In this document: piece by piece, positions 57,008-62,434 of the stretch
How positions within the stretch are numbered: position 1 is the stretch's first letter
Layout: each line of letters opens with the position of its first letter
From: Nitrospirota bacterium
GTDB lineage: Bacteria; Nitrospirota; Thermodesulfovibrionia; Thermodesulfovibrionales; UBA6898
NCBI GenBank assembly: GCA_021811105.1
Contig: JAJZPM010000002.1
Location: 186,001 to 250,000, forward strand
DNA: 64,000 bases
Reading direction: 5' to 3'
Program-made: the position numbers and the translations under genes
Notes under the pieces: model-generated
Told to the model about the DNA's origin: nothing
Database searches by the model: none
The model's input: only the letters and a program-made list of their open reading frames with translations

Positions 57008-58426
57008 ATGACGAAATATTGCCCTCTGGATCGTACTAAGCTTTTAGCTGCAATTCCACTTTTGCTGTTGAGCGCCGTTACCATGATGATGCTCTCAGGA
57101 TGCAGTGACAGCCGTACGTATACTGTTTCAGGGAAGATCACATCGGGTGGCGCCCCTCTTTCGGGCATTATAGTGACTTTTGCCGACGAGAATTCAAATA
57201 CAATCGAAACAACGACTACGGATGCAAACGGCAACTATAGCTTTACGGATGTCTCCGGCGGCATTTACACTGTAACTCCTTCGCGGACAAGCTTTGGCAT
57301 TTTTACCCCGCCCTTCAGGAAGGCATTCCTCGACGGCCTCAGCGCGGTCGGGTTTAACTTCAGCGTAACGAACGCAGGCAGACTGGGGGGAACAAACCAC
57401 ACTGTTTTTCTTAAGACCGACGGCACAGTCCGGACATGGGGAAATAACAGCAACGGCCAGCTCGGCAACGGGACTACCACGAATAGCGCCCTGCCGGTAG
57501 AGGTGACGGGACTGACCGGGATAACAGCCGTTTCGGCCGGCAATACTCACACTGCGGCACTGAAAACCGACGGCACGGTCTGGACTTGGGGGAATAACAC
57601 TACCGGGCAGCTCGGCAATGGGAGCACGACGCAAAGCACCACGCCGGTGCAGGTAATCGACCTTGCTGACGTGACAGCCATATCGGCTGGGTCCGATCAT
57701 ACGGTAGCATTGAAAACCGACGGCACGGTCTGGACTTGGGGAAGCAACAGCAACGGGCAGCTCGGCAACGGAAGCACGCTTTCCAGCTCCGCGCCTTTAC
57801 AGGTACCAGGGCTGTCGAACATAACCGCTATTGCCGCAGGCTCTAATTACACTCTCGCGCTGAAGAACGACGGCACGGTCTGGGCATGGGGTAACAACAG
57901 CAATGGACAGCTTGGCGACGGGAGCACCACACAGAGCTACGTCCCTGTGCAGACGAGCAGTCTGTCAAACGTGATCGCCATCGCCGCAGGGTTTTCTCAT
58001 GCCGTCGCGCTTAGAAACGATGCGACTATTGTGTCTGTCTGGACGTGGGGCAATAATACCAACGGCCAGCTGGGTGACGGGACCACTTCGCAACGTAACG
58101 CCCCGGTACAGGTGCCAAACTTCTCCAATGTAGCTTCTGTTGCGGCAGGCAATGACCACACAGTAGCGCTGAAAAACGACGGCACAGTCTGGACATGGGG
58201 AAATAACAGCAATGGACAGCTTGGCGACGGGACCACTAATCAGCGCGATGTGCCTGTGCAGGCCGGCGGCATATCCGGCGTAACTGCCGTGGCAGCCGGC
58301 TACCAATATACTGCCGCCCTGAAAGTCGACAACACAGTCTGGACATGGGGAAACAATAATTACGGGCAGTTAGGGAATGGGGCTACGACCGGAAGCTTGA
58401 CCCCGGTGCAGGCACAGTTACCTTGA
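57008..58426 (+). CDS. RCC1-repeat beta-propeller lipoprotein
   Basis: A 472-aa lipoprotein: the signal (LLAAIPLLLLSAVTMMMLSG) ends in a lipobox with Cys 32. It is followed by a carboxypeptidase-regulatory-like/CarboxypepD beta-sandwich (about 37-110, GKITSGGAPLSGIIVTFAD) and seven RCC1 repeats with the core LKTDGTVWTWGNNSNGQLG. Seven blades would close a complete propeller. The function is unknown; such proteins mediate binding at the cell surface. Several repeats are almost identical at DNA level (for example around 57563 and 57713), pointing to recent duplication or gene conversion. It has its own leader GAGGAG eight bases before the ATG. Confidence 0.85.
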   Translation: MTKYCPLDRTKLLAAIPLLLLSAVTMMMLSGCSDSRTYTVSGKITSGGAPLSGIIVTFADENSNTIETTTTDANGNYSFTDVSGGIYTVTPSRTSFGIFTPPFRKAFLDGLSAVGFNFSVTNAGRLGGTNHTVFLKTDGTVRTWGNNSNGQLGNGTTTNSALPVEVTGLTGITAVSAGNTHTAALKTDGTVWTWGNNTTGQLGNGSTTQSTTPVQVIDLADVTAISAGSDHTVALKTDGTVWTWGSNSNGQLGNGSTLSSSAPLQVPGLSNITAIAAGSNYTLALKNDGTVWAWGNNSNGQLGDGSTTQSYVPVQTSSLSNVIAIAAGFSHAVALRNDATIVSVWTWGNNTNGQLGDGTTSQRNAPVQVPNFSNVASVAAGNDHTVALKNDGTVWTWGNNSNGQLGDGTTNQRDVPVQAGGISGVTAVAAGYQYTAALKVDNTVWTWGNNNYGQLGNGATTGSLTPVQAQLP

Positions 58427-59075: not shown

Positions 59076-59220
59076 CGTCTGCTCGGACTCCGTTCATGTC
59101 TTTTCAACCGGCCCATTACAAAATTATAGCAAAACACCGAAAAAAAATGGTATCATTGTATTTATCCGCAAAAGATAGTTCAGAAAAAATCCTGATAAAA
59201 AAATGGGTTACAAAGTTTTT

Positions 59221-59252
59221 CATATTTTCTTCAAATTTATGCTATATAGTAT
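59221..59252 (+). promoter_or_regulatory. Conserved promoter block upstream of rpoD
   Basis: A TTTTCTTCAAA...GCTATAT...GTAT block that recurs nearly unchanged at 60837-60868 before the sigma-1.1 paralog. TTCAAA and TATAGT/TATATT-like hexamers suggest a sigma-70 promoter, about 90 bases before the rpoD start. The duplicated block supports a functional element. Confidence 0.55.
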
Positions 59253-59338: not shown

Positions 59339-60760
59339 ATGGATAAAAATGAACTTTTCGATGAGATAATCGAGCTGGGAAAGAAGCGTGGCTCATTGAC
59401 GTATGATGAGATCAACGAGGCGCTCTCACCAGAGTTCTTCGCTCCTGATGAGATGGAGGAACTTATCGAACTGCTGGAAGAAATGGGGATAGAGGTCCTC
59501 TCGCCCGAGGAAGCCGGCCCAGCCGGGGAAGAAGTCTGGGAAGAAGAGGAGACCCCCGAGACCGAAAAAACAGAGGACCTCGTGCAGGCGTATTTCCATT
59601 CTATGGGCAACATCACCATCCTGACTAGACAGGAAGAGATAGAGATTGCCAAGAGACTCGATGAGGGAAGAAAGATAATCAAAAAAACCGTCACTTCGAT
59701 GCCGCTTTACCGGAAGACAGAGGCGGCAATGGAAATCAAGGAAGAGGAAGAGCCGGAAGAGCGGGCCGACAGGGCGCTTCTGCTCTCAATGGAGGCGCTC
59801 GATTGCCTCATGGAGCAGATAAGCGAGACTGACCGGAAGGTCGTGCGGTACGGTTCCCTGAAGGACTTGAAAAAAACCATTCAGGAGAAGAAGAAAAAAG
59901 GGATCAACCCTGCCAAGCTCCAGGACACAGCAAAAGAGGTGCAGGCGGTATACAAGGCGGTCGAGACTGAAGTCGGGATGAAAATAGATGATATCCGGGC
60001 TGCCTGGGACAGGATAACAAGGGCCAGGACTCTTTATAACGAAGCCAAGAACGAACTCACAACGCGGAACCTCAGGCTGGTGGTAAACATAGCAAAGAAT
60101 TATATAGGAAGGGGACTCTCCCTGCTGGACCTTATCCAGGAGGGAAATATCGGCCTTATGAGGGCGGTCGACAAATTCAAGCATGAAAAGGGGTTCAAGT
60201 TCAGTACGTATGCCACATGGTGGATACGGCAGGCGATCACACGGGCACTGATCGACCAGACGAAAACGATAAGGGTGCCTGTTCATATGGTGGAGTTCTA
60301 CAACAAGGTGACGAGGACTTCGAGGGAGTTGACCCAGGAACTCGGCAGGGAACCGAGAAACGAGGAAATCGCCGGGAAAATGGGCGTGGCGACCTCGAAG
60401 GTCGAAGAGGTCTTCAGGGCTATCCAGGACCCCATCGCCCTTCAGACCAAGGTGGGCGATGAGGACTCTGAACTCGAAGATTTCATCAGTGACGAAAACG
60501 TTCTTTCACCTTATGAGGACACCGAAAAGGGGGAACTTTCCGAAAAGATGATCCTGCTCCTGAAGACGCTGCACCCGAACGAAGAAAAGGTGATCAGGAT
60601 GAGGTTTGGGATCGGAGTCGACAGGGACCACACCCTCGAGGAAGTCGGCAAATGTCTCTCGCTCACCCGAGAGAGAGTGCGCCAGATCGAAGCGAAGGCA
60701 TTGAGGAAGCTCAAACATCCCGGACGGCTGAAGGTACTGAAAATACTGACTGCCGCATAA
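59339..60760 (+). CDS. rpoD: Primary sigma factor RpoD (sigma-70)
   Basis: A 473-aa group 1 sigma factor. Region 1.1 (about 1-55) is DNA-mimicking and acidic. Region 1.2 has [20 protein letters not shown], and region 2 has [22 protein letters not shown] then [17 protein letters not shown] (-10 recognition). Region 3 follows, and region 4 ([20 protein letters not shown]) recognises -35. The non-conserved insert between 1.2 and 2 is shorter than in E. coli. ATG 59339 has GAGGGAAAAAG upstream. A 17-bp terminator follows. Confidence 0.95.
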
Positions 60761-60781
60761 GCGGCGTCGACTATTCAAGGG

Positions 60782-60824
60782 AAACCCCTGATGAAATAAA
60801 TTTAATATTTCATCAGGGGTTTTT
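60782..60824 (+). terminator. Strong terminator of rpoD
   Basis: A perfect 17-bp stem: AAACCCCTGATGAAATA (60782-60798), 7-base loop, complement at 60806-60822, then further T. It cleanly separates rpoD from the sigma-1.1 paralog. Confidence 0.9.
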
Positions 60825-60836
60825 GCCTCTTTTCTT

Positions 60837-60868
60837 CACATTTTCTTCAAATTATTGCTATATCGTAT
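60837..60868 (+). promoter_or_regulatory. Duplicated rpoD-type promoter block
   Basis: Matches the block at 59221-59252 at about 27 of 32 positions (CACATTTTCTTCAAATTATT, then GCTATATCGTAT). It lies 29 bases before the ATG of the sigma-1.1 paralog, so the small gene has its own rpoD-like promoter. Confidence 0.55.
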
Positions 60869-60896
60869 TGGCCATCTCACGCACAAAAGGTGGACC

Positions 60897-61079
60897 ATGA
60901 AAGAACACGACGTGTACGAAGCGATTATCGAAATCGGCAGAAGGCGGGGAAATGTTACCTACGACGAGATCAACGATGCACTTCCCCCCGAGTTCTTCTC
61001 TCTCGAAGAACTCGAGAAATTTGTAAGGCTGCTTCTGGGCATGGGGGTAAGGCTGACCCCGAGTGCAGCACGAAACTAG
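60897..61079 (+). CDS. Stand-alone sigma region 1.1 paralog
   Basis: A 60-aa protein, MKEHDVYEAIIEIGRRRGNV..., closely resembling residues 1-55 of the adjacent RpoD: compare [20 protein letters not shown] with DVYEAIIEIGRRRGNVTYDE, then [10 protein letters not shown] with INDALPPEFF. It lacks all core-binding and DNA-binding regions. AAAAGGTGGA precedes ATG 60897. It could compete for the site occupied by region 1.1 in RNA polymerase, but no function is established. It probably arose by partial tandem duplication of rpoD including its promoter. Confidence 0.75.
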   Translation: MKEHDVYEAIIEIGRRRGNVTYDEINDALPPEFFSLEELEKFVRLLLGMGVRLTPSAARN

Positions 61080-61081
61080 AC

Positions 61082-62434
61082 TTACGCAATGCCGAGCTTT
61101 TTTATCTTCCGGTAGAGTGTGGCGAGGTCCACTCCAAGCTGCCGCGCGGTCTCTTCCTTATTCCAGTCGTTGGTCTGGAGCGTCTCCCTGATAATCGTCT
61201 CTTCGTAGTAGTCAAGTCTGTCTTTCAGCGTCCGCGTGGTCCGCGAGCTGTCGTGCGACCTCACCTTTTCGGGAAGCTCGGCGGTCCCTATCTCTCCGCC
61301 TCCGGAAAGGACCACCGCCCTTTCAATCACGTTCCGGAGCTCTCTGATATTGCCGGGCCAGGGATAATTCACCAACGCCTCCATCGCCTCGTCCGATATT
61401 CCGGCCACCTTCTTGTTGTTTTCCCTGCAGCACCTGTCGATAAAATGCCGCGCAAGCACCCGGACATCTTCCTTCCTTTCTCTCAGGGGAGGGATTTTCA
61501 CCTCGATCACGTTCAGCCGGTAGTAGAGGTCCTCGCGGAAAAGCCCTTTCCTGATCTGTTCTTCGAGATCCTTATTGGTGGCGGCGATGAGCCTGATGTC
61601 CACGAACCGCGGTTTCGTCTCGCCGAGTGGAAGCACTTCGCCGGACTCGAGGACCTTCAGGACCTTCGCCTGAAGTCCCATCGGCATGTCTCCTATCTCG
61701 TCGAGAAAGAGCGTCCCCTGATCGGCCATCGTGATCAGTCCTTTCTTGTCCGATGCCGCACCGGTAAAGGCGCCCTTTCTGTATCCGAAGAGTTCGCTCT
61801 CCAGCAGGTTTTCGGGAATTGCGGAGCAGTTGATCGAGATGAAGGGCTTGTCTTTTCTCTGACTGTTTCCATGGACGATCTCGGCGATCAGGCCCTTGCC
61901 GGTACCGCTCTCGCCCAGGAGCAGGATATTGGAGCGCGTCGGAATGACCTTGCTCAGGATGTCGAGCACCTGGGATATCTGAGGCGATACCCCGACGAAC
62001 TCCCGGTTGCCGAACTGCTGGCTGAGCTGCTGCCGGAGGACCAGATTTTCCATCAGGACCTTCCGGTGCTCCAGGAGCCTCCTAACGGTCATCTTCACGT
62101 CTTCGTTGATGAAGGGTTTTACGATATAGTCGCTCGCCCCTTTCTTCATAGCCTCGACGGCAGACTCCACCGAGCCGAAGGCGGTCATGATGACCACGAT
62201 GAGCCCCGGACTCATCGAGAGGGAACGTTCGAGCACCTGCATGCCGTCTATCCCCTCCATCTTGAGGTCGGTTATGACGAGGTCGAAATCATCAGCTTCC
62301 ACTTTCTTCAGCGCCTCCTGCCCGCTGTTGGCGATGGCCACCTTGTAGCCCTCCCGCGACAGCAGGAATTCGAGCGCCCTGCAGATGTCCCTTTCGTCGT
62401 CTACGACCAGTATCTTCGCCGCTTCAACTTTCAT
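61082..62434 (-). CDS. NtrC-family sigma-54-dependent response regulator
   Basis: A 450-aa regulator: receiver domain (KILVVDDERDICRAL, phospho-acceptor Asp in DLVITDLKMEG), central AAA+ domain with Walker A GESGTGKGLIAEIV, GAFTGA (sigma-54 contact), Walker B TLFLDEIGDMP, and a C-terminal Fis-type HTH (KEETARQLGVDLATLYRKIKKL). It activates sigma-54 promoters on phosphorylation by the neighbouring kinase, with which it overlaps by 11 bases. The pilin operon in this window has a sigma-54-like promoter, but no direct link is shown. The HTH suggests a tandem operator target. Confidence 0.93.
   Translation of the reverse strand: MKVEAAKILVVDDERDICRALEFLLSREGYKVAIANSGQEALKKVEADDFDLVITDLKMEGIDGMQVLERSLSMSPGLIVVIMTAFGSVESAVEAMKKGASDYIVKPFINEDVKMTVRRLLEHRKVLMENLVLRQQLSQQFGNREFVGVSPQISQVLDILSKVIPTRSNILLLGESGTGKGLIAEIVHGNSQRKDKPFISINCSAIPENLLESELFGYRKGAFTGAASDKKGLITMADQGTLFLDEIGDMPMGLQAKVLKVLESGEVLPLGETKPRFVDIRLIAATNKDLEEQIRKGLFREDLYYRLNVIEVKIPPLRERKEDVRVLARHFIDRCCRENNKKVAGISDEAMEALVNYPWPGNIRELRNVIERAVVLSGGGEIGTAELPEKVRSHDSSRTTRTLKDRLDYYEETIIRETLQTNDWNKEETARQLGVDLATLYRKIKKLGIA

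Follow-up and report, generated by a model that had tools for sequence, protein, structure and literature searches.

Region 1.1 of group 1 sigma factors (Pfam family PF03979; represented by Escherichia coli sigma-70 and, as structure 5MWW, by Bacillus subtilis sigma-A) is a known domain, and database entries named after it alone may exist. SigO-RsoA of B. subtilis is a split sigma factor, the separate parts of which complete one sigma. Two small phage-encoded proteins, T7 Gp2 and the strongly acidic Ocr, target RNA polymerase in the DNA channel or close to it. In the accessible portions of the literature, Ocr is a DNA-mimic inhibitor (PMC7064336), and region 1.1 is described as occurring solely as an attached part of group 1 sigma factors (PMC4598750). 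On its own, region 1.1 has so far been tested with cut-out fragments. In the available part of one report, E. coli region 1.1 supplied in trans as an isolated domain affected RNA polymerase lacking it and the sigma-38 holoenzyme, with Gp2 sensitivity restored; the effect depended on the phage protein Gp2 and on the acidic E. coli domain of 100 aa (PMC3778932). Alternative primary sigma factors are known in Burkholderia, and the accessible text of that account contained no stand-alone region 1.1 (PMC2194791). Neither a natural stand-alone region 1.1 nor transcription control by a loose sigma domain was found in the literature searched (available portions of sources including PMC2613000, PMC3778932, PMC4598750, and PMC2194791).

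The window analyzed here (64,000 nucleotides of DNA from a Nitrospirota bacterium) contains a natural free version of the domain, gene A. The order at the locus is rpoD2, a strong terminator, and gene A under a separate copy of the rpoD2 promoter (window positions):

59219-59235, + strand: regulon element TTCATATTTTCTTCAAA before rpoD2, exact (pattern search)
59245-59250, + strand: -10-like hexamer TATAGT of rpoD2, 9 nt past the element (42-site comparison)
59339-60760, + strand: rpoD2, second full-length group-1-type sigma factor, 473 aa, with all sigma-70 regions found; lineage apart from rpoD1
60780-60824, + strand: intrinsic terminator of rpoD2, between rpoD2 and gene A, 19 pairs and a T tail (conserved in the four-species alignment)
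60835-60851, + strand: regulon element TTCACATTTTCTTCAAA before gene A, one mismatch to the pattern (pattern search)
60861-60866, + strand: -10-like hexamer TATCGT of gene A, 9 nt past the element (42-site comparison)
60888-60893, + strand: ribosome-binding site AGGTGG of gene A (sequence)
60897-61079, + strand: gene A, stand-alone sigma region 1.1 protein, 60 aa, ATG to stop (PF03979, 5MWW fold match, dN/dS)
61082-62434, - strand: NtrC-type response regulator, convergent, ending 3 bp past gene A (Pfam)

A repeat protein encoded at 57008-58426, which we take to be RCC1-like from its repeat pattern, precedes a TPR gene and rpoD2, and was kept in four of the genus loci examined.

The only Pfam family in gene A was PF03979 (Sigma70_r1_1; E = 4.6e-12, 46.2 bits against a cut-off of 22.5). 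Regions 2, 3, and 4 were absent, so that the product is region 1.1 alone and not a group 1 sigma factor. The hallmark motif TYDEINDALP was intact, and BLASTP against the adjacent RpoD2 (59339-60760) gave 19 identical residues out of 35 (E = 8e-14). The AlphaFold model (pLDDT 78.9) matched 5MWW with TMq 0.84, Z 8.5, and rmsd 2.5 over 60 residues; the fold predicted by the model is the region 1.1 fold. The ATG start is favored because the most diverged copy (G002) was open from this ATG only (60 aa) and because a longer TTG start (60855) lies upstream of the -10. The good ribosome-binding site claimed in the original prediction was recovered as AGGTGG.

Gene A shares its sequence family and predicted fold with the region 1.1 of group 1 sigma factors but is free-standing, lacks regions 1.2 to 4 and the acidic linker, and carries approximately 5 to 9 fewer negative charges. 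Its proposed role resembles that of the isolated E. coli domain, which in the accessible description is a laboratory construct (100 residues, acidic) with a Gp2 readout, whereas gene A is a natural 60-aa gene (PMC3778932). Its proposed role likewise resembles that of Gp2 and Ocr, although these are unrelated in sequence to gene A, the product of which is weakly acidic. As in SigO-RsoA, a sigma domain is encoded as a separate small protein. However, the SigO-RsoA partner lacks the supplied part, whereas RpoD2 has its own region 1.1; a possible partner elsewhere would be one of the two region-1.1-less sigmas of the same genome. The extra RpoD-type sigmas of Burkholderia, as far as the available text describes them, are comparable to rpoD2 (PMC2194791). 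The domain is known; its free-standing, co-regulated form is, by the literature searched, new.

Gene A was present in four of the five genus genomes, each time in tandem with rpoD2. Across these four species, dN/dS was 0.02-0.15 (3 to 43 nucleotide differences, mostly third-codon), and the terminator, upstream element, ribosome-binding site, and frame were all preserved. The earlier statement that the gene is not decaying was therefore borne out, and a decay or pseudogene reading was rejected. Sequence comparison confirms gene A as a real, maintained stand-alone region 1.1 gene. The tandem arrangement, proposed beforehand as a check, also occurred in a genome of another family (G181), where an rpoD2-type gene is immediately followed by a stand-alone gene and each of the two is preceded by the element. 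One congener (G003) retained rpoD2 with the element and the NtrC-type flanking gene but had no gene A, the same neighbors adjoining directly; absence from close relatives together with no transcript had been named as grounds for abandoning the prediction, and the first part applies to this congener. The patchy distribution (gene A was missing from G003 and, among the matches listed, from most of the class) would suit a remnant left by duplication of rpoD, translated yet without function. The codon-level constraint contradicts such a remnant, and the preserved element and terminator and the recurrence of stand-alone genes in five genera also speak against it; we consider it very improbable.

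Gene A had been described as a reproduction of the N-terminal domain of the adjacent RpoD. Its region 1.1 identity held, but the RpoD1 domain proved closer: gene A was approximately 54-61% identical to the RpoD1 region 1.1 vs. 48% to that of its neighbor RpoD2, which leaves a copy of the adjacent RpoD unproven. Grouping of gene A and RpoD2 as one clade had a p-AU of 0.085 (0.107 without seven charge-related columns), and all 14 stand-alones fell on one side of a branch (support 92/88 and 72/80); these trees rest on 49 to 58 columns, too few to settle the origin of gene A. Origin as a recent tandem copy of the neighbor's region 1.1 is neither supported nor rejected by these comparisons.

Four places in the genome matched PF03979: gene A, rpoD2, rpoD1 (on another contig), and gene B, a second stand-alone region 1.1 gene (71 aa) found in all five genus genomes and unlinked to rpoD. 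Further stand-alone genes occurred in G016 (two), G071, G180, and G181. Among the matches listed, stand-alone genes were found in at least nine of 230 class genomes, in five genera; the phylum-wide search took in 395 genomes, again among the matches listed. Six false stand-alones were removed: four were RpoD genes cut by a contig end (L051, L052, L055, and L057), one was a frame-shifted RpoD (L056), and one was a chance match (L054, E = 3e-4). Gene B and the G180 gene have msrA and a zinc-ribbon gene as common neighbors, across two families. B-type proteins (L043 4130-4342, L045, and L044) end in a basic C-terminal tail that is absent from RpoD domains.

Plasmid and phage collections were searched with E. 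coli region 1.1 as query (best 60 of 85 plasmid records, all nine phage records). Of four hits inspected, two were full RpoD (L117 and L118) and one (L116, 475-aa frame) was region 1.1 with further sigma sequence. The fourth, from a Cupriavidus metallidurans plasmid (L115 2372-2626, 84-aa frame), covers half the length of region 1.1, lies where the plasmid is unannotated, and is probably debris. Phage or plasmid origin of gene A was rejected, with no match in phages or plasmids and no relative in viral contigs.

Stand-alone and attached domains differed in charge. Over the first 54 aa, net charge was -2 to -4 in gene A and -2 to -9 in all stand-alones vs. -7 to -13 in 29 RpoD domains. At position 9, every one of the 29 RpoD domains had E, whereas the 14 stand-alones all had A, T, or S. 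Position 41 was acidic in 28 of 29 RpoD domains vs. one of 14 stand-alones (K or R in 10), and position 44 in 28 of 29 vs. two of 14; the rows within each set are related, and these counts are not independent events. Gene A thus lacks the acidic, DNA-mimicking character described for the PF03979 family (which is not part of the profile). Because the acidic residues are gone and net charge is reduced, plain DNA mimicry appears unlikely for gene A, and the earlier suggestion of a DNA mimic is weakened. The charge signature suggests which region 1.1 surface matters. The reduced acidity would also fit a loss of RNA polymerase binding. The stand-alone family may have kept the fold and been recruited elsewhere, for example to another stress protein or a nucleic acid; the loss of acidic residues at positions 9, 41, and 44 in nearly all 14 stand-alones, the basic tail of the B proteins, and their msrA and zinc-ribbon synteny in two families would agree with this. 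We consider such recruitment rather doubtful, given the intact TYDEINDALP motif of gene A, its 54% identity to the RpoD1 region 1.1, and the strong constraint on the whole short protein.

The upstream blocks of gene A (60832-60868) and rpoD2 (59216-59252) were 86% identical over 37 nt. The upstream block had been read as a copy of the rpoD promoter; the likeness stands, but the block is one site of a wider stress-type regulon rather than a private copy. The regulon element has the form TTCAYATTTTCTTCAWA-N9-TAnnnT and is made of 11-bp direct repeats, the clearest being TTCATATTTTC, repeated at 11 bp in G002 (L123). In OmpR/PhoB-type promoters, 11-bp direct repeats replace the -35 and stand at a fixed distance from the -10. 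The element shows both features: it has 11-bp repeats, and across 42 sites the -10 usually lies at +9. TAnnnT, which was not a selection criterion, was found exactly at +9 with T in 38, A in 35, and T in 37 of the 42, a set in which element hits with poor surroundings (L097, L098, and L102) were retained. With up to two mismatches, TTCATATTTTCTTCAAA had 143 hits in 25 genomes and its reversed pattern had 24 (133 and 16 without the AT-rich G034).

The element preceded 13 of 46 RpoD genes examined (0-2 mismatches), all rpoD2-type and none rpoD1-type, whereas the remaining 33 had at least four mismatches. It preceded all four copies of gene A, 62-68 nt ahead of the ATG. A 23-nt core (three or fewer mismatches) had exactly two sites, at rpoD2 and gene A, in each of four of the five genus genomes; in G003, the first 17 bases of the element were present before rpoD2 and the -10 part was different. 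The element was also found before the stand-alones of other families in G181 (two mismatches) and G071 (one mismatch) and was weak in G016 (three). The upstream pattern search found no sense-oriented element before the G180 stand-alone or any gene B; near gene B, in four of the five genus genomes, the element faces the opposite way, into a 77-aa gene and msrA. The stand-alone family is therefore not uniformly stress-controlled.

The adjacency and co-regulation of gene A and rpoD2, together with charges that differ in opposite directions (RpoD2 region 1.1, -13; gene A, -4), would suit a sigma-directed partner. The accessible portions of one source state that region 1.1 compacts free sigma, hiding its DNA-binding parts (PMC4598750). 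The gene A product might mimic the attached region 1.1 in compact free RpoD2 (or RpoD1), so that DNA-binding regions are masked or unmasked and sigma loading on core is altered; it would then be a weak anti-sigma or sigma-priming factor. The G071 stand-alone carries the element yet lies away from any rpoD, and gene B is also unlinked to rpoD, which makes a sigma-directed partner unlikely in our estimation.

Genes downstream of the element included msrA and those for a TolC/CusB-type metal efflux pair, an MFS exporter, a thioredoxin-reductase-like protein, periplasmic Metal_resist/LTXXQ proteins, small conserved secreted proteins, and NapH-like membrane proteins. In G000, G001, G002, G181, and G028, an orthologous gene pair for an OmpR-type regulator and a kinase immediately preceded an element-bearing operon; in G071, the pair lay a few kilobases from one. 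This pair is a candidate master of the regulon, and its reading of the element is suggested by position. Since the pair flanks an element-bearing operon, metal/envelope stress control of the element-bearing genes is likely. The regulator-kinase loci (L122 1025-3116, L123, L124, L132, L133, and L125) adjoin operons for small secreted and LTXXQ-type proteins. A small conserved secreted protein occurred directly behind the element in seven loci (L095 298-642, L100, L101, L103, L104, L108, and L113); it starts with TPYGDYC..C..YG.CK and ends with DRKTGRIRSI, and the L095 copy had no Pfam match.

On balance, we lean towards gene A encoding a stress-induced, free-standing region 1.1 that would act in trans on RNA polymerase. 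As read from the sequence, gene A is maintained with the region 1.1 fold and shares with rpoD2 an element of 17 bp, placed at a constant distance from the -10, and the same element precedes msrA, a CusB/TolC-type efflux operon, LTXXQ/Metal_resist genes, and rpoD2-type genes in other genomes, but not rpoD1. Metal, redox, or envelope stress would activate these genes through an OmpR-type two-component system. Once induced, the gene A product may contact sigma or enter the RNA polymerase site for region 1.1, and may thereby adjust how promoters are opened by RpoD2 or by those sigmas of the same cell that lack region 1.1. Because the acidic face is gone, it would occupy the channel more weakly than the attached domain, or in a different position, acting as a modulator and not simply as a DNA mimic. 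Action of gene A in trans is favored by the E. coli in-trans result together with the presence in the same genome of two large RpoD-like sigmas that lack region 1.1 (L119 85-1707 and L120 999-2351); this genome holds at least four RpoD-like sigmas overall. The wider picture is more tentative, possible but short of probable: a two-component system in metal-exposed Nitrospirota would answer metal/envelope stress with a second primary sigma and a detached, charge-stripped region 1.1, re-tuning promoter opening in trans.

The findings suggest that some uncultured Nitrospirota adjust RNA polymerase with a loose sigma domain; if so, the cell re-tunes promoter opening by its RNA polymerase through that domain. 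Gene A is kept by selection and apparently wired to stress with a second sigma, which allows the in-trans abilities of region 1.1 to be probed directly. The regulon element is a first handle on metal/envelope stress control in these uncultured bacteria.

The rpoD2-type genes formed lineages separate from rpoD1 in the tree. rpoD1 began directly after the 3' end of the 23S rRNA gene in the four of six loci where a 23S gene was found (L046, L047, L048, and L020). Many class assemblies break just upstream of rpoD1 because the 23S rRNA gene adjoins it.
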